From positions 1 to 37,327 of IMG/VR virus record IMGVR_UViG_3300030101_004315: a stretch of 37,327 bases of DNA; one strand, given 5' to 3'. The notes under the pieces were generated by a model, which was given only the letters and a program-made list of their open reading frames with translations, was not told the DNA's origin and did not search any database. Both the position numbers and the translations under genes were made by a program. This DNA comes from a virus. The stretch's first letter is position 1. Every line of letters starts with the position of its first letter. Below, one piece after another: positions 3,581 to 9,677 of this stretch.

Positions 3581-3830
3581 GAATAGTCGCCGTAACTATA
3601 CTATTTTCACGGAGTATAGCGGACTAAACCAAGACCAACAGCGGGTGCCGGCGATCGTGCTAGCACACCGCTACGGTCTTACCCGTGGTCGTATCTATCA
3701 GATTGTTGCGCAACAGCGAGCCAAAGTTCAAAGCAGCAATCCCCGTGTCAAATACTACAATGAATCAATCGAACGAGACGCAGAGGCCGTCTCATCGATG
3801 CTCAAAGATTTCTTGGAGGCAAGAGGATGA
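3573..3830 (+). CDS. small helix-turn-helix protein (sigma region 4-like), 85 aa
   Basis: Residues about 28-55, reading VPAIVLAHRYGLTRGRIYQI then VAQQRAKV, fit the two helices of a sigma-70 region 4-type helix-turn-helix: a scaffold helix, a Gly turn, then a recognition helix with the R-I-x-Q-I pattern. It likely binds DNA and may regulate phage transcription. The N-terminus is basic (SRNSRRN). ATG 3573 overlaps the previous stop and follows tggagata; the longer upstream extension (from 3408) lies inside the previous gene. It is far too short to be a full sigma factor. Confidence 0.7.
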   Translation: MSRNSRRNYTIFTEYSGLNQDQQRVPAIVLAHRYGLTRGRIYQIVAQQRAKVQSSNPRVKYYNESIERDAEAVSSMLKDFLEARG

Positions 3831-4159
3831 GCTATCTAAAAGCAAGCGATGTTTTACCCGTCGCTCTTATCGATATTGTGCAACAGCATATTGAGACAAA
3901 ATACCCTGATTTTTCAGGTGGTTCCATCTATGTGCCTGCGAGGGGATCTGTTGATGTGCGCAACAAGTCAACATCAGAAAAAGCCTACTCCAAAGCATTT
4001 GCTATCATCGCAATGCACGATGGCTTTACGCAAGAAGAAGCGGCTCAGATGGTCGGTGCATCACGCAACACCGTGCTCAAATGGAAAAGCAAATACGGTG
4101 ATCGTGTGATCGAAGCCCTCAAAGAACTGCGCAACAATAGGAGTCAGATCAATGACTGA
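3827..4159 (+). CDS. CD3324-like / helix-turn-helix protein, 110 aa
   Basis: The N-terminus (SYLKASDVLPVALIDIVQQH, then an IYVPAR strand) resembles the opening of the small CD3324-type protein family. Residues about 70-95 (GFTQEEAAQMVGASRNTVLK) form a clear helix-turn-helix like that of transposase or homeodomain-like DNA binders. A DNA-binding or regulatory role is likely; the target is unknown. It overlaps its neighbours by 4 and 8 nt, with aggcaagagg ahead of the ATG. It is the second of three consecutive DNA-binding-type genes. Confidence 0.75.
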   Translation: MSYLKASDVLPVALIDIVQQHIETKYPDFSGGSIYVPARGSVDVRNKSTSEKAYSKAFAIIAMHDGFTQEEAAQMVGASRNTVLKWKSKYGDRVIEALKELRNNRSQIND

Positions 4160-4772
4160 AAAAAGAGGTAAAGGCATACCCTTTGCGAAAGGAAGCGAAA
4201 CAAGTGCTGACGCTGCTGATTCAATGGAGAAGCCATCGCTTCGGCTGCGCAGTAAAGTGCGATTGTACTTGTACAGTTGTGGTGAGACTGGGGCTACTGA
4301 CGAGCAAATCCAGCTTGCATTGAATATGGCACCAAACACCCAACGACCAAGACGCCTTGAACTAGAAAAGCAAGGAGCTATTCGCAAGCTGTACGTCGAT
4401 GGCAAGCATGTCAAACGCACAACAAAGAGCGGTCGCAAAGCTGGCGTGTATGTTCACAGTCTGTTCGATACGGAGTTACCACCAGTACCCGAACACGAAA
4501 TCAAGAAACTTGTAGATCCTAGATCAAGGTCTGGTATAATACCTCCTACGGAGGTGAGCATGCCAAAAGCCAAACTTATTGAGCGTCTCGATTCACTAGT
4601 TTTTCGAGCAAGTACGTTGTCAACGGAACTGCGCAACGAGCCGCAAGCCTATGATTCTACTGATGTTATTGCATCTGAGATGAAGCTAATCATTGAGCAT
4701 TTCACTGCTGTTGTAAATGCAGGAAGAAAGCTCTACAAAGAGGTTGACCAATCAGAAAATCAAGTTCATTAG
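4152..4772 (+). CDS. winged-helix DNA-binding protein with separable C-terminal domain, 206 aa
   Basis: Residues about 30-100 look like a winged helix. A helix-turn-helix (TDEQIQLALNMAPNTQRPRR, then LELEKQGAIRKL) is followed by a beta wing with basic residues (TTKSGRKAGVYV). Residues 137-206 form a separate helical domain after a Pro-rich linker. The linker DNA contains an extended -10 promoter, a hairpin and a strong Shine-Dalgarno before an in-frame ATG (4560). The gene may therefore encode a full-length protein and a shorter one. Start ATG 4152 overlaps the previous gene by 8 nt with ataggag upstream. It is the last gene before the non-coding gap. Confidence 0.75.
   Translation: MTEKRGKGIPFAKGSETSADAADSMEKPSLRLRSKVRLYLYSCGETGATDEQIQLALNMAPNTQRPRRLELEKQGAIRKLYVDGKHVKRTTKSGRKAGVYVHSLFDTELPPVPEHEIKKLVDPRSRSGIIPPTEVSMPKAKLIERLDSLVFRASTLSTELRNEPQAYDSTDVIASEMKLIIEHFTAVVNAGRKLYKEVDQSENQVH
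4510..4540 (+). promoter_or_regulatory. putative internal sigma70 promoter, extended -10
   Basis: TGGTATAAT at 4532-4540 is a perfect TATAAT with the TGn extension. The -35 is weak: TTGTAG at 4510-4515 with a 19-nt spacer. It lies inside the winged-helix gene. Predicted transcription start is about 4547, directly before the Shine-Dalgarno of the internal ATG at 4560. Confidence 0.5.
4541..4562 (+). promoter_or_regulatory. Shine-Dalgarno inside a perfect hairpin before an in-frame ATG
   Basis: ACCTCC (4541-4546), loop TAC, GGAGGT (4550-4555): a perfect 6-bp stem that holds the Shine-Dalgarno, 4 nt before ATG 4560. On a long read-through transcript the site would be paired. A transcript starting near 4547 would lack the pairing arm and leave it free. 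Confidence 0.55.
4560..4772 (+). CDS. possible internal-start product: C-terminal 70 aa of winged-helix protein
   Basis: ATG 4560 is in frame with the 206-aa gene (codon 137). It is preceded by a near-perfect Shine-Dalgarno (GGAGGTGA) that would be unusual by chance inside a coding region, and by its own promoter-like -10. The product, starting MPKAKLIERLDSLVF, is helical and lacks the winged helix. It could act as an oligomerisation or modulating form of the parent protein, as in other dual-start regulators. This is an inference; the element could also be chance or a relic of a gene fusion. Confidence 0.4.
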   Translation: MPKAKLIERLDSLVFRASTLSTELRNEPQAYDSTDVIASEMKLIIEHFTAVVNAGRKLYKEVDQSENQVH

Positions 4773-4774
4773 TT

Positions 4775-4852
4775 CCATACTCTTTCCTTACTCCGTTACC
4801 CCATTTAGAGAGACGTTGTTATAGGGGTAAGGGGTTAAGGAAGGGGGTATGG
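4775..4852. repeat. long imperfect inverted repeat in the non-coding gap
   Basis: The left arm 4775-4802 (begins CCATAC, ends TTACCCC) pairs with 4824-4852 (begins GGGGTAA, ends GTATGG) around a 21-nt loop. The inner 19 positions give 16 Watson-Crick pairs, one G-U and two mismatches; the outer CCATAC/GTATGG pairs perfectly. No T-tract follows on either strand, so it is not a classical intrinsic terminator. It sits between the regulator cluster and the recombination operon, starting just after a stop codon. It may be an attenuator, an RNase III site or a DNA element. The rest of the gap (4853-4889) holds only the ribosome site of the next gene. Confidence 0.7.
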
Positions 4853-4889
4853 GGGAAACCATTAGGGGATCACGCCCCGAGGAGGAAAC

Positions 4890-5681
4890 GTGGATAAATC
4901 GAGTTATCATTCCGGCACAGACCGGCTAACCAGCAGCGGCGCTAAGGAGATCCTCAAGAGCCCTGCTCACTACATGCTGCGATATGGGCCGAAGGCCAAA
5001 CGTCCACAGCCTACAGCAGCCATGCGATTCGGGACAGCAGTGCACATGCTGATTCTCGAAGGCGAGGACAAGTTCAAGCGCCATGTTGCTTGTCGCCCCG
5101 AGGGCCTGAATCTGCGCACCAAAGCAGGCAAGGCTGAGATGGAGGCATTCCTGCAAGCTACCAACATCGATCCGGGTATGGTGTTCAGTCAGTTCGACTA
5201 CGACGATATGTTCTGGATGCGAGACGCTGTGATGAAGCATCCCGTCTGTTCAGAGATACTCTCCGACGGCACGCCGGAGCACTACTTCGAGTGGCAGCAC
5301 GGAGCGACGGGAGCGCCATGCAAGGCGATTGCTGACTGGGTTGGTGGTGGTTGCATGATCGACCTGAAGACCTGCCAGGATGCAAGCCCCGATGGCTTTG
5401 CCAAAGCGGTCTACAGCTTCAAGTATCATTTGTCCGCTCAGTTCTATCTGATGGGCGATGCTGCTCTCAATCATGGCCAGACTAAACAGTGGTATTGGAT
5501 CGCCGTTGAGAAGCACACTCATCAGGTCGCTGTGTACCATCCCGATGTAAAGATGGATGAGATCGGCTACCGACTGTGTGAAGAGGCGATCAATCGATAC
5601 GCCGAGTGCAAAATGAACAATGAATGGCCTTCGTATCCGAAGGTCGCAAAAGAGCTAATCAGCCCATCATGGGCTCGATGA
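4890..5681 (+). CDS. RecE-like PD-(D/E)XK exonuclease, 263 aa
   Basis: Matches the C-terminal nuclease of exodeoxyribonuclease VIII-type proteins (PDDEXK_like family). It would degrade one strand of double-stranded DNA ends to expose single strands for annealing. Motifs in order: FGTAVH (47-52, catalytic-site His), KAIADW (145-150, metal Asp149), MIDLKT (156-161, Asp158 and Lys160) and QFYLM (184-188, the Gln-Tyr motif). The length fits a stand-alone phage nuclease rather than the large RecE. The start is GTG 4890 with GAGGAGG six bases upstream. The Rad52-type gene follows 11 nt later, making an exonuclease/annealase pair. Confidence 0.85.
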   Translation: MDKSSYHSGTDRLTSSGAKEILKSPAHYMLRYGPKAKRPQPTAAMRFGTAVHMLILEGEDKFKRHVACRPEGLNLRTKAGKAEMEAFLQATNIDPGMVFSQFDYDDMFWMRDAVMKHPVCSEILSDGTPEHYFEWQHGATGAPCKAIADWVGGGCMIDLKTCQDASPDGFAKAVYSFKYHLSAQFYLMGDAALNHGQTKQWYWIAVEKHTHQVAVYHPDVKMDEIGYRLCEEAINRYAECKMNNEWPSYPKVAKELISPSWAR

Positions 5682-5692
5682 AAGGAGGGATC

Positions 5693-6181
5693 ATGACCCC
5701 TGATATCATGAAAGCGCTACAAGCTCCGTTTGCCCCACACGATGTGGAGTGGCGTGTGCAGCGTGAAGTTCGCAACGGTGAAGCCGTAATGGTTCTGCCG
5801 TACGTTACCAACCGTGCTGTCCAAAGCAGACTCGATGATGTGTTCGGTGTCTTCGGATGGGAAAACCGTTTCGTGCCGGGTCCGAGCGGTGGCTTGATTT
5901 GCGAGTTGAGGGTGCGCAACCCAGAAACCGGCGAGTGGGTAGTCAAGCAAGACGGGGCTGACAATACCCAAGTTGAAGCCGTCAAAGGCGGCATGTCGTC
6001 CGCCATGAAACGCACTGCTGTCCAGCTTGGTATCGGTCGGTACCTGTACTACTTGGACTTCCAGTTCGTACCTCTTCAAGATCGTGGTGAGCACTACCAC
6101 CGAGTCAAGGCGACTGGTCGTGCTGCTTACTGGAATACTCCACAACTGCCCGCATGGGCATTACCCAAAGAAGGGAAGTAA
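5693..6181 (+). CDS. Rad52/Rad22-type single-strand annealing protein, 162 aa
   Basis: The core has the Rad52-family pattern: YVTNRAVQSRLDDVFG, a Trp in GWEN, a beta hairpin, then GADNTQVEAVKGGMSSAMKR followed by GIGRYLYYL. In this family the conserved basic and aromatic residues form a ring that binds and anneals single-stranded DNA. I choose ATG 5693 because aaaggaggg lies 5-6 nt upstream; the longer frame from 5624 lies inside the nuclease gene. With the RecE-like nuclease before it and SSB after it, this is a phage recombination operon. The length is typical of phage Rad52-like annealases. Confidence 0.88.
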   Translation: MTPDIMKALQAPFAPHDVEWRVQREVRNGEAVMVLPYVTNRAVQSRLDDVFGVFGWENRFVPGPSGGLICELRVRNPETGEWVVKQDGADNTQVEAVKGGMSSAMKRTAVQLGIGRYLYYLDFQFVPLQDRGEHYHRVKATGRAAYWNTPQLPAWALPKEGK

Positions 6182-6183
6182 TC

Positions 6184-6600
6184 ATGCTTCGTGACTTCCA
6201 GATGATTGGGCGCATTGGCAAGCTTGACGAGATCAAGATGCGTAGCGCTGACAGCAAGGGGTGCGAGATGCGCATTGCTTGCTCTGACTTCAAAGACGGC
6301 CAGGAGAGCACATCGTGGTTCACCGTGGTCGCGTTCGGCCGTGTCGCCATCACAGCCATTGATCAATACAACGTCGGTGATCAGATCTTTCTGAGCGGCA
6401 CCATCGACATGGACAAGTGGACTGACAAGACCACGGGCAAGGAGCGCTCTGCAATGAAGCTCAAGGCATTCCGCTGTCGTCGTTTGGCCAAGGGCAAGAA
6501 CAGCAGCGAGGGCCAGCAGCAGCAGTACCAGCAGCCCCAGCACCAACAGTATGGTGGCTACGGTCAACATCAGGGCGGAGGATACAATGAGCAGTTCTGA
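6184..6600 (+). CDS. ssb: single-stranded DNA-binding protein, 138 aa
   Basis: Residues about 1-100 form an OB-fold SSB (MIGRIGKL, a TSWFTVVAFG strand, GDQIFLSGTIDMDKW). Residues about 109-138 are a Gln/Gly/Tyr-rich flexible tail ending in NEQF. The usual acidic tip (DDDIPF-like) is reduced to one Glu before a terminal Phe, so partner binding may differ from host SSB. ATG 6184 lies 2 nt after the previous stop, with aaagaaggga upstream; the in-frame ATG at 6154 is inside the Rad52-like gene. It coats single strands during recombination and replication. Confidence 0.88.
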   Translation: MLRDFQMIGRIGKLDEIKMRSADSKGCEMRIACSDFKDGQESTSWFTVVAFGRVAITAIDQYNVGDQIFLSGTIDMDKWTDKTTGKERSAMKLKAFRCRRLAKGKNSSEGQQQQYQQPQHQQYGGYGQHQGGGYNEQF

Positions 6601-6988
6601 TGAGTTCAAAGAGATCGAGGCAGCCAAAGATCAGATGATCGAGCAGGCCACGGAATACATGAATGTAGTTGATACGCTGCTAGAGGCCTCGCAGTCTCGG
6701 ATCGATGCTGCGGTCGCTGTGATCGACCATGAGAATAAACTCAATGTTTCTCTCAACGAGCTAAAGGTTACTTGGCTAGAACGGTGCGCAGCCATGCTGC
6801 GTATCAATGCTGTTCGGTATCTGACCAAGGACGAGGACGGCAAAGATCGCATCCAGTTGGTGTTTGCTGATACTGACTACGATCCGATCATGGAGGACGA
6901 TGGCACGCCTAGTGTTGTCTTCAATCAGTTTGAGGATATTGCTGCTCTAGTTATTCGGGTTCCCAAGAAGGAAGAAAAACCCAATTGA
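6587..6988 (+). CDS. hypothetical helical protein, 133 aa
   Basis: Acidic, mostly helical N-terminal two thirds (about residues 5-85, including ATEYMNVVDTLLEASQSRID), then a beta segment RIQLVFAD and an acidic stretch. No family is recognised. It overlaps the SSB gene by 14 nt, with ggcggagga ahead of ATG 6587, and overlaps the RusA start by 4 nt. Between SSB and the resolvase it is probably an accessory of the same module. No catalytic motif is visible. Confidence 0.75.
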   Translation: MSSSDEFKEIEAAKDQMIEQATEYMNVVDTLLEASQSRIDAAVAVIDHENKLNVSLNELKVTWLERCAAMLRINAVRYLTKDEDGKDRIQLVFADTDYDPIMEDDGTPSVVFNQFEDIAALVIRVPKKEEKPN

Positions 6989-7428
6989 AACTAGTGTACT
7001 TTGTTCCGGGTAGGCCAGTGCCAAAGCAATCTTATCGTGCGTCAAAGTTTGGGGGATACCAGCCCAAGCGAGTTACGGATTTCAAAAAGGTTGCGCAGCT
7101 AATCGCTGACCACGCCGCCATCAGGCAAAACTGGGAACGGGCCGACGGGCCGGTGCTGCTTCGATTGCAGTTCCGGTTCCGTTGCCCGACCGGCGCACGC
7201 AAAGCTGACAAGCAAAAATGCAGATGGCGCATCTCACGTCCGGACCTAGACAATCTTCAAAAATCTATCATCGACAGCATTTCTGATCTCATCCTCGTTG
7301 ACGATGCTCAGATATGCATGACCATTTGCACAAAGATCATCGCCAAAGAGGGCGACGAAGAGGGTACGAGCGTCACCCTAGAAACGCTTGGAGAATACGA
7401 TGAAAGACATCCGAGTCTATTTGAATGA
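6985..7428 (+). CDS. rusA: RusA-family Holliday-junction resolvase, 147 aa
   Basis: The diagnostic segment ISRPDLDNLQKSIIDSI is followed by VDDAQI. The acidic residues of PDLDN and VDD are those used by RusA dimers to bind metal and cut four-way junctions. The opening FVPGRPVPKQS and a basic region around residues 60-80 also fit. The start is TTG 6985, overlapping the previous stop by 4 nt, with aaggaag about 10 nt upstream. It would resolve recombination or replication intermediates before packaging, consistent with the nuclease/annealase/SSB context. Confidence 0.88.
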   Translation: MKLVYFVPGRPVPKQSYRASKFGGYQPKRVTDFKKVAQLIADHAAIRQNWERADGPVLLRLQFRFRCPTGARKADKQKCRWRISRPDLDNLQKSIIDSISDLILVDDAQICMTICTKIIAKEGDEEGTSVTLETLGEYDERHPSLFE

Positions 7429-8200
7429 ACTGTACGATAAGATGAGCGACATCGGGCGTACCGACCCGGACAATCCGCCACAGCCCGTGCCATGCGATGG
7501 ATGCGATGAGAGCTTAGGGTTTGAATGGCAACAGGGATCCCGGTTTAGCTACTGGGTAAAGCGCCAGTGTCAAACTTGCGAAGACAGAAAGCGGCAGTCC
7601 CAGATCGAGCAAAGGCAACTTGCACTTTTGCAGAAAAGCGGTGTGCCCAAGTTTTTGCACAAACTATCATCACCTACTATGCTTTCGATGGATGCCCATA
7701 ACGATCACGTTGCTTCGGCCGTGCGAAGCTGGAAACCGCCAGCGTGGCTACTAGCCGTTGGCCCTGTAGGCACAGGCAAAACTAGTTGGTTGACTAGTTT
7801 ATTTATCGAGCAGTTGTTTACTGAATCATCATTCAGTGAATCCCTTTGGACCACAGAAGCAAATCTTTTTGAGCGGGCTGACATTGCTCACGAGCATCAC
7901 GGTTACACGGCAAGGCAGAACGTAGTAGCCCCATACATCACAACGCCCATGTTGATGATTGACGATTTAGGAGCCAGTCGCAGGCGGCTCACTGAGTGGC
8001 AAGGGTCTGCTATGCGCAACCTATTCGATGTTCGTTACAGCAATGGGTTGCCTGTGTTCATTACAACTAATCTATCTGTGAAAGATTTGATCAACCGTTA
8101 TGGTGATCACATTCATAGCAGGATTATGTCTGCGTCAGGTGGTGCTTTGTTCGTGCCTGGCCGGGACAGGAGGATCAGTGGATCGCAAACAGATATCTGA
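7400..8200 (+). CDS. DnaC-type AAA+ helicase loader with N-terminal zinc motif, 266 aa
   Basis: Walker A is GPVGTGKTS (121-129), Walker B is MLMIDDL (184-190), a sensor-like TTN lies at 222-224 and a likely arginine finger (HSRIM) at 239-243. These match the DnaC/IstB subfamily, which loads replicative helicase onto DNA. The N-terminus has CDGC (32-35) and CQTC (57-60), a probable zinc ribbon seen in some phage and DnaC-like loaders. ATG 7400 is chosen over TTG 7388 because GGAG at 7390-7393 then has correct spacing. No helicase or primase is in the window, so the partner is encoded elsewhere or by the host. Confidence 0.82.
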   Translation: MKDIRVYLNELYDKMSDIGRTDPDNPPQPVPCDGCDESLGFEWQQGSRFSYWVKRQCQTCEDRKRQSQIEQRQLALLQKSGVPKFLHKLSSPTMLSMDAHNDHVASAVRSWKPPAWLLAVGPVGTGKTSWLTSLFIEQLFTESSFSESLWTTEANLFERADIAHEHHGYTARQNVVAPYITTPMLMIDDLGASRRRLTEWQGSAMRNLFDVRYSNGLPVFITTNLSVKDLINRYGDHIHSRIMSASGGALFVPGRDRRISGSQTDI

Positions 8201-8369: not shown

Positions 8370-8760
8370 ATGTCCAACATGTGACATGCCCAATAAAACG
8401 ATTCGAGAGTTTCGCAAGCTGCGCACAATGCACAAGAACCTTGAAGATCAAGTTACTGCTCAAAAACAAATCATTAGCGCCCTGCGAAAAGAGATGAACG
8501 CTCTGAAGCTGCAAAACAGGCGACTCAGCAGTGGCCGAAACACATACAAACAGCGTTTGGAAAAAATAAAATCCGACTTATCTTTTGAAAAGAAATTAAG
8601 TCGAGAGAGAAAAACTGATCTCAACAAAATGCAAAAAGAATTTGTTGATACAGTATTTTCTTACAATCGAAGAATTGAAGATCGTGATTCAAAAATATCA
8701 AGCCTAGAACAAAGACTGCAAAGGTTTAACAAAGCCGTGAAGTTGCTAAGGGAGATATGA
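8362..8760 (+). CDS. coiled-coil protein with N-terminal CxxC, 132 aa
   Basis: It begins MTRCPTCDMPNK, one zinc-knuckle half, followed by a long, Lys/Arg/Glu-rich coiled coil across about residues 15-130 (LEDQVTAQKQIISALRKEM, KISSLEQRLQRF). A pair of such chains could complete a zinc site by dimerising through the coil. The function is unknown; a DNA-linked scaffold or regulator is possible. ATG 8362 follows ggcggaggtaaaa. The gene is A-rich compared with the recombination module and overlaps the methyltransferase start by one base. Confidence 0.75.
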   Translation: MTRCPTCDMPNKTIREFRKLRTMHKNLEDQVTAQKQIISALRKEMNALKLQNRRLSSGRNTYKQRLEKIKSDLSFEKKLSRERKTDLNKMQKEFVDTVFSYNRRIEDRDSKISSLEQRLQRFNKAVKLLREI

Positions 8761-9677
8761 TGGAACCTGTAATACTAAAAAATGGCCCATACAAAGCACA
8801 GCTAATCTATGGTCATGGTTCAAGCGATGCTGTTCTGAAACAAAACCCTCAGTTAAAATACGACTGCATTATTACATCGCCGCCTTACTTCAACCTGCGC
8901 AACTACAGCGATGAAAAAGCAGAGGTAGGCAAAAATCAAACCCTCCATGAATACATTGAAAACTTGGTTTCTATTTTTCGAACAGCCAGGGAAAACTTAA
9001 GTGATCAAGGCAGCTTATGGCTAAACGTTGGCGACAGCTATGCAGGCAGAACGGCCAACAGAAACAGAATCAATGGCAATCACAACGTAACCAAACGCAC
9101 GATACCAGACGGCTTGAAAGAAAAAGATCTAATCGGAACGCCCTGGCGCTTGGCCTTTGCTTTGCAAGCAGACGGATGGTGGTTACGCAACGAGCTAATA
9201 TGGCAAAAACCCAACCCCATGCCATCGAGTGCTAAAGATCGGTTTACTGTCGCACATGAACAAATATTCTTACTAACCAAGAAAAAAGATTACTATTTCA
9301 ACCTTGATCCGTTGCGCACCAAGATATTAAATCCACGACGAGTTGACCCTCGGATTGCAACTGCCCCAAGCGACACGGGGGCACAGCCCAGAACAGTATG
9401 GAAGCTAAAGCCTAACTCCTTTATGGGACAGCACCCCGCTGTGTTCCCGGAGGAACTTCCGTGGCGATGTATGCAAGCTGGATGCCCAGAAGGCGGCACG
9501 GTTTTAGATCTGTTCAGCGGCAGCGGCACTACAGGCAAAGTGGCTCTTACAAATAAGCGTAATTACATTGGTATCGATGTAAACGTTGACTATTTATCAA
9601 TAGCTAAGCGCAGGGTGTCGGTTCTGCTTTCTGATTATCAGACAAACGAAAATCAATCAGAATTGTTTGGAGCATAA
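8760..9677 (+). CDS. DNA methyltransferase (N4-cytosine/N6-adenine, beta-class order), 305 aa
   Basis: Catalytic motif IV TSPPY (39-43) comes before the S-adenosylmethionine motif I (VLDLFSGSGTTG, about 247-258), the beta-class order of the N6_N4_Mtase family. SPPY is commonest in N4-cytosine enzymes but also occurs in adenine enzymes, so the base is unresolved. Other supports are GSLWLNVGDSY, WRLAFALQADGWW and the terminal GIDVNVDYLSIAKRR helix. ATG 8760 is preferred to 8757 because gggag is 5 nt upstream. No restriction endonuclease is nearby, so it is likely an orphan methylase used to protect or mark phage DNA. Confidence 0.88.
   Translation: MEPVILKNGPYKAQLIYGHGSSDAVLKQNPQLKYDCIITSPPYFNLRNYSDEKAEVGKNQTLHEYIENLVSIFRTARENLSDQGSLWLNVGDSYAGRTANRNRINGNHNVTKRTIPDGLKEKDLIGTPWRLAFALQADGWWLRNELIWQKPNPMPSSAKDRFTVAHEQIFLLTKKKDYYFNLDPLRTKILNPRRVDPRIATAPSDTGAQPRTVWKLKPNSFMGQHPAVFPEELPWRCMQAGCPEGGTVLDLFSGSGTTGKVALTNKRNYIGIDVNVDYLSIAKRRVSVLLSDYQTNENQSELFGA

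Follow-up and report, generated by a model that had tools for sequence, protein, structure and literature searches.

Does a phage open reading frame of 206 codons encode one protein or, through start signals buried in its own coding sequence, two? The question arises at ORF 4152-4772 of a viral record from IMG/VR (IMGVR_UViG_3300030101_004315), of which positions 1 to 37,327 were analysed; this whole stretch of 37,327 nucleotides is called the window here. The ORF stands second in an operon on the + strand, after a helix-turn-helix gene (3827-4159), has its own Shine-Dalgarno (SD) sequence, AGGAG, upstream, and joins a winged-helix domain, a linker and a helical tail in one frame. It is open in all three of the phages compared, namely the window and two IMG/VR contigs (L002 and L003) that carry the gene at ~97% amino-acid identity. 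Further along this operon lie genes for an exonuclease VIII-like protein (4890-5681), Erf (5624-6181), SSB (6154-6600), RusA (6985-7428), a DnaC-like loader (7388-8200) and a DNA methyltransferase (8757-9677).

Predicted start signals inside the long reading frame

The first-pass annotation of this DNA had claimed an extended -10, a hairpin that buries GGAGGT and an in-frame ATG within the winged-helix gene, and all of these are indeed present. The extended -10, TGGTATAAT (4532-4540, +), consists of TGG followed by TATAAT, with the hexamer at 4535-4540, and is preceded at a 19-nt spacing by a -35-like TTGTAG (4510-4515, +), which is kept in L002 and L003. Since this -35 is weak, the promoter call rests on the extended -10; the element is a candidate sigma-70-like promoter. 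The hexamer is followed on the + strand by a perfect stem made of ACCTCC (4541-4546) and GGAGGT (4550-4555) around the loop TAC, the second arm being an SD sequence 4 nt 5' of an ATG at 4560. This ATG is codon 137 (Met137) of ORF 4152-4772, is in frame with it and would open a product of 70 aa (4560-4772, +). Transcription had been proposed to begin at about 4547, inside the hairpin loop, and the position of the -10 does place the predicted +1 at 4547 (+), the first base of the loop.

The hairpin proved larger than the 6 bp first described. Addition of the pair U4540-G4556 gives an inner stem of 7 bp (4540-4546/4550-4556, with the 3-nt loop 4547-4549), which buries GGAGGT, and an outer helix of 6 bp (4532-4537/4560-4565) is predicted over AUGCCA, in which the -10 arm pairs with the AUG and the neighbouring codon and closes the start codon; the whole structure spans 4532-4565 (+). 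The RNA of 4530-4565 folds at -14.5 kcal/mol (z -3.6), a stability that none of 200 shuffles attained, and the inner stem-loop is the sole perfect match to its pattern in the window. Because the -10 DNA is, as RNA, the 5' arm that pairs with the start codon as well as with the SD side, an RNA begun at 4547 would be without both 5' arms. Across the three phages, the computed cost of opening the stretch from SD to AUG is 12.1-14.5 kcal/mol on long RNAs versus 3.0-7.0 kcal/mol on RNAs that begin at 4545-4549 (for comparison, 1.9-9.4 kcal/mol at 12 other starts of the window), and the probability that the SD is unpaired rises from 0.00-0.01 on the long RNA to 0.32-0.50 on the RNA from 4547. Two features of the promoter-in-hairpin arrangement of the T4 e/soc/I-TevI type, a helix over SD/AUG and a promoter in its 5' arm, are both predicted here.

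The -10, the stems, the SD and the ATG are unchanged in 3/3 phages, which are close kin (~97% identical proteins), and the nearest changes to the ATG, at 4558 and 4559, both fall in an unpaired bulge. An alignment of homologues, proposed earlier as a check, thus finds every element kept but no significant conservation at synonymous sites among three such close phages: over the 11 cassette codons ~1.4 synonymous changes would be expected and 0 are seen (not significant), and a search for runs of synonymous-site conservation in the three close sequences gave no signal (p 0.63 for the longest run). A scan of the three phage genomes for a further cassette of this kind, by the criteria applied, found none.

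On balance, and with modest confidence, we read 4532-4562 as the start cassette belonging to a separate gene for a 70-aa protein, one that carries a promoter-in-hairpin switch and lies in frame after the winged-helix gene. In the mechanism that we posit, the extended -10 promoter doubles as the 5' arm, in RNA, of a hairpin that buries the SD and the AUG. An RNA begun upstream would contain both arms and allow only poor initiation at 4560, unless ribosomes on the long frame open the stem, and an RNA begun at 4547 would be devoid of the 5' arm and give rise to the 70-aa protein; with the upstream winged-helix gene reading into the small gene, both the long and the short protein would be produced. 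Promoter activity, a transcription start at 4547, initiation at 4560 and the making of both proteins are thus what the sequence leads us to expect. The core of the earlier proposal, an internal start with its own predicted promoter and a fold that blocks the longer RNA but not that from ~4547, is borne out by computation in the three phages. The further proposal that the same ATG would be closed on the long transcript and open on the short one stands in part: the opening energies agree with it for untranslated RNA, but the stem would melt as ribosomes translating the parent cross it, and closure should then apply only to untranslated RNA or between ribosomes.

A winged helix, a linker and a predicted helical tail

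The winged-helix domain of the long protein (residues 28-102; 4233-4457, +) is recognised in the AlphaFold2 model, through weak Foldseek matches to winged-helix regulators and by a profile match to phrog_1123, a phage winged-helix protein of unknown function (E 4e-6, residues 16-100). The profile is 112 positions long, and the ORF exceeds it by ~105 residues, a surplus seen in this phage group only. The domain is followed by a linker (residues 103-136; 4458-4559, +) that is mostly predicted to be disordered and is lacking in distant relatives, and in which the last third (GIIPPTEVS) is the in-frame translation of the start cassette. In the model of the full 206 aa, confidence is low over residues 108-136 and a helical hairpin begins at 139; modelled by itself from Met137 (70 aa), the tail is likewise predicted to fold, with a mean pLDDT of 84.

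Substitutions among the three phages number 11 synonymous versus 4 nonsynonymous in the tail (p 0.00015) and 4 versus 1 in codons 102-136 (p 0.018). These biases show coding constraint on the tail, and probably also on the linker, from which it follows that the tail is a real protein and that the joined long frame is probably translated as well. The locus therefore combines an internal start that has an SD with coding constraint on both of the segments that flank it, as is seen in nested in-frame pairs.

All of the more distant winged-helix relatives (L013-L022) stop 2-25 residues past the domain, and comparison of these sequences marks the linker and the helical tail as special to the three-phage group. 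Relatives gathered by means of Erf (L030-L032) have no winged-helix gene, and the winged-helix domain has no match in the genome collection or in plasmids. The 70-aa protein has no homologue by sequence outside the three phages and no stand-alone copy; it is found in none of Pfam, PHROGs and NCBIfam, and a fold search returned generic helical hairpins only (best E about 0.5-0.9). The domain architecture nonetheless suggests that the tail descends from a gene of its own. With Erf, exonuclease VIII, SSB, RusA and DnaC encoded close by, one might guess at a role in DNA replication or recombination. A more specific version of the preferred reading, which we put forward tentatively and consider doubtful as it stands, is that the cassette lies intact inside a fused DNA-binding protein and is translated as part of it, with the ratio of fused to free tail set by promoter choice together with translation of the parent; ribosomes would melt the stem on the long RNA, the short RNA would have no such stem, and the 34-nt element would act as promoter, RNA switch and linker.

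As a separate observation on this neighbourhood, the gap before the exonuclease gene (4773-4889) contains a long hairpin whose pairs include G-U (CCATACTCTTTCCTTACTCCGTTACCCC ... GGGGTAAGGGGTTAAGGAAGGGGGTATGG; z -2.8), and it lies in the region's longest invariant run, 184 nt without change among the three phages (4732-4915). This hairpin has no match in Rfam, in plasmids or in a phage search that spanned the gap, and Rfam recognises no family anywhere in the window.

Chance expectation and similar cassettes at other loci

Single elements of the cassette are not rare, TGGTATAAT by itself occurring at an unremarkable frequency. Synonymous shuffles of ORF 4152-4772 place GGAGG ahead of Met137 in 17% of cases, combine TATAAT, an SD and the ATG in 1.9%, and yield an equally stable fold at the position of the cassette in 34 of 3000 (~1%). 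With the protein held fixed, the composite geometry (a -10, a pairing arm, an SD, an in-frame start, and a +1 in the arm or loop) arises in 3.9% of the shuffles of this gene versus 0/48,000 when 12 other genes of the window are shuffled, which indicates that the peptide GIIPPTEVSM permits the cassette. That the whole cassette arose by chance is unlikely, but not astronomically so.

Similar arrangements occur at other loci. The pattern TATAATNCCTCC-N3-5-GGAGG-N5-8-ATG is found in 13 viral contigs, several times at plausible gene starts and in some cases clearly not, and the stricter TATAATACCTCC..GGAGGT..ATG is found in five bacterial genomes of different groups, where all instances start ORFs (72-361 codons). 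In phages, TATAATCCTCCC..GGAGG..ATG opens Hot/HolE-like genes, homologues of DNA polymerase III theta; in L035, L048-L060, L062-L074 and L080, the Hot/HolE-like genes are preceded by an intergenic TATAAT that runs directly into CCTCC-loop-GGAGG and the ATG, and hot of phage P1 is without the cassette. The promoter-in-hairpin layout of the Hot/HolE-like genes looks like a recurrent device. A scan with the arm CTCCC was tried as a composition control and rejected, since all 27 matches were preceded by C and hence were CCTCC; nearly all of them lie at Hot/HolE-like gene starts. The absence of matches with A, G or T before CTCCC served as a substitute control, although most of the matches obtained belong to one gene superfamily.

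The same cassette also stands ahead of a 53-aa phage gene in L036 (6354-6381), in frame with 173 open codons upstream; it is possibly a second nested case, with an upstream frame that is simply open. Read in frame, it gives IIPPKEES-M, next to IIPPTEVS-M in the window, and the peptide is therefore the one that results from reading through a non-coding start cassette. Such near-identical cassettes at gene starts elsewhere support 4532-4562 as a gene start.

Alternative readings and comparison with known systems

It is conceivable, though rather unlikely in our estimation, that the 206-aa protein is the sole product. The -10, the hairpin and the SD would then be incidental to the codons that encode G-I-I-P-P-T-E-V-S-M, and the tail would be a lineage-specific C-terminal extension. 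The shuffle frequencies of GGAGG and of the composite in this gene, the open frame with its constrained linker and the non-significant conservation of the cassette are all consistent with such an origin, but the strong combined fold, the complete lack of the composite in the shuffles of the 12 other genes, the placement of the +1 exactly in the loop, the position of the start at the edge of an independently folding domain and the presence of the same cassette at gene starts elsewhere argue against it. Translational coupling is known to operate through hairpins at downstream starts, and the 70-aa protein could instead be made with no promoter in use, if ribosomes translating the parent melt the hairpin and start again at 4560, so that dosage follows translation of the parent; the strong SD and the location of the hairpin within a translated frame would suit this, but it leaves unexplained an extended -10 that has its +1 in the loop and is kept in 3/3 phages, and we regard it as improbable.

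We give similarly little credence to the earlier suggestion that the short product modulates its parent, by which the tail protein would bind its full-length winged-helix counterpart, perhaps by the pairing of two tails. The tail is modelled as a helical hairpin, a common shape for self-association, and RepR' of pIGRK is an in-frame short form that antagonises the full-length protein (PMC6854812); yet RepR' retains the winged helix that the 70-aa product is without, the tail pairing is hypothetical, winged-helix relatives do without the tail, and the shared frame is the only link between the two.

Should the preferred reading hold, and 4532-4562 start a separate 70-aa gene, gene callers would be annotating a single protein of 206 aa in an ORF from which the phage makes two, and a control device known from T4 would be seen to operate within a reading frame and from a promoter of host type. 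The locus would also offer a legible case of gene fusion: the downstream gene's start signals would have turned into a protein linker and retained their form. As the TATAAT-CCTCC-loop-GGAGG-ATG arrangement is searchable and recurs where genes begin in unrelated phages and bacteria, the question is broadly testable.

The T4 late genes e, soc, 49 and I-TevI (also I-TevII, I-TevIII, segB and Aeh1 mobE) bear an inhibitory hairpin on early transcripts, with the late promoter within or next to its 5' arm, such that their own transcript is without the arm and is translated (PMC3014915; PMC2988022). The likeness lies in an SD and/or AUG buried on longer transcripts and in promoter DNA that forms part of the 5' arm, both predicted from sequence in the present case; unlike the phage late promoters of T4 (TATAAATA, gp55), the candidate here is a sigma-70-like extended -10. 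Moreover, the T4 hairpins described in these studies lie in the leaders of separate genes or introns (PMC3014915; PMC2988022), whereas the stem at this locus is inside the upstream reading frame.

Internal in-frame starts that give a second protein are known from RepR/RepR' of pIGRK, plasmid TrfA-44/33 and archaeal Cas8b/Cas11b (PMC6854812; PMC11899642), and RepR' has no internal promoter and keeps its winged helix (PMC6854812). The present locus differs from RepR' in that a promoter-like element is present and the short form would be devoid of the DNA-binding domain. T4 gene 49 is likewise said, from work by Barth and colleagues in 1988, to use an internal in-frame start for a second product.

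Serratia phage BZS1 and other temperate phages of enterobacteria have Hot/HolE-like genes at which TATAAT abuts CCTCC..GGAGG..ATG as it does here and the +1 falls in or beside the loop, but those cassettes are intergenic and the protein is unrelated. In the transposase genes of IS10 and IS50, read-through RNA folds over the start site and RNA born at the gene's own promoter does not; those genes lie at the ends of mobile elements, whereas the switch proposed here would be nested in a phage reading frame.
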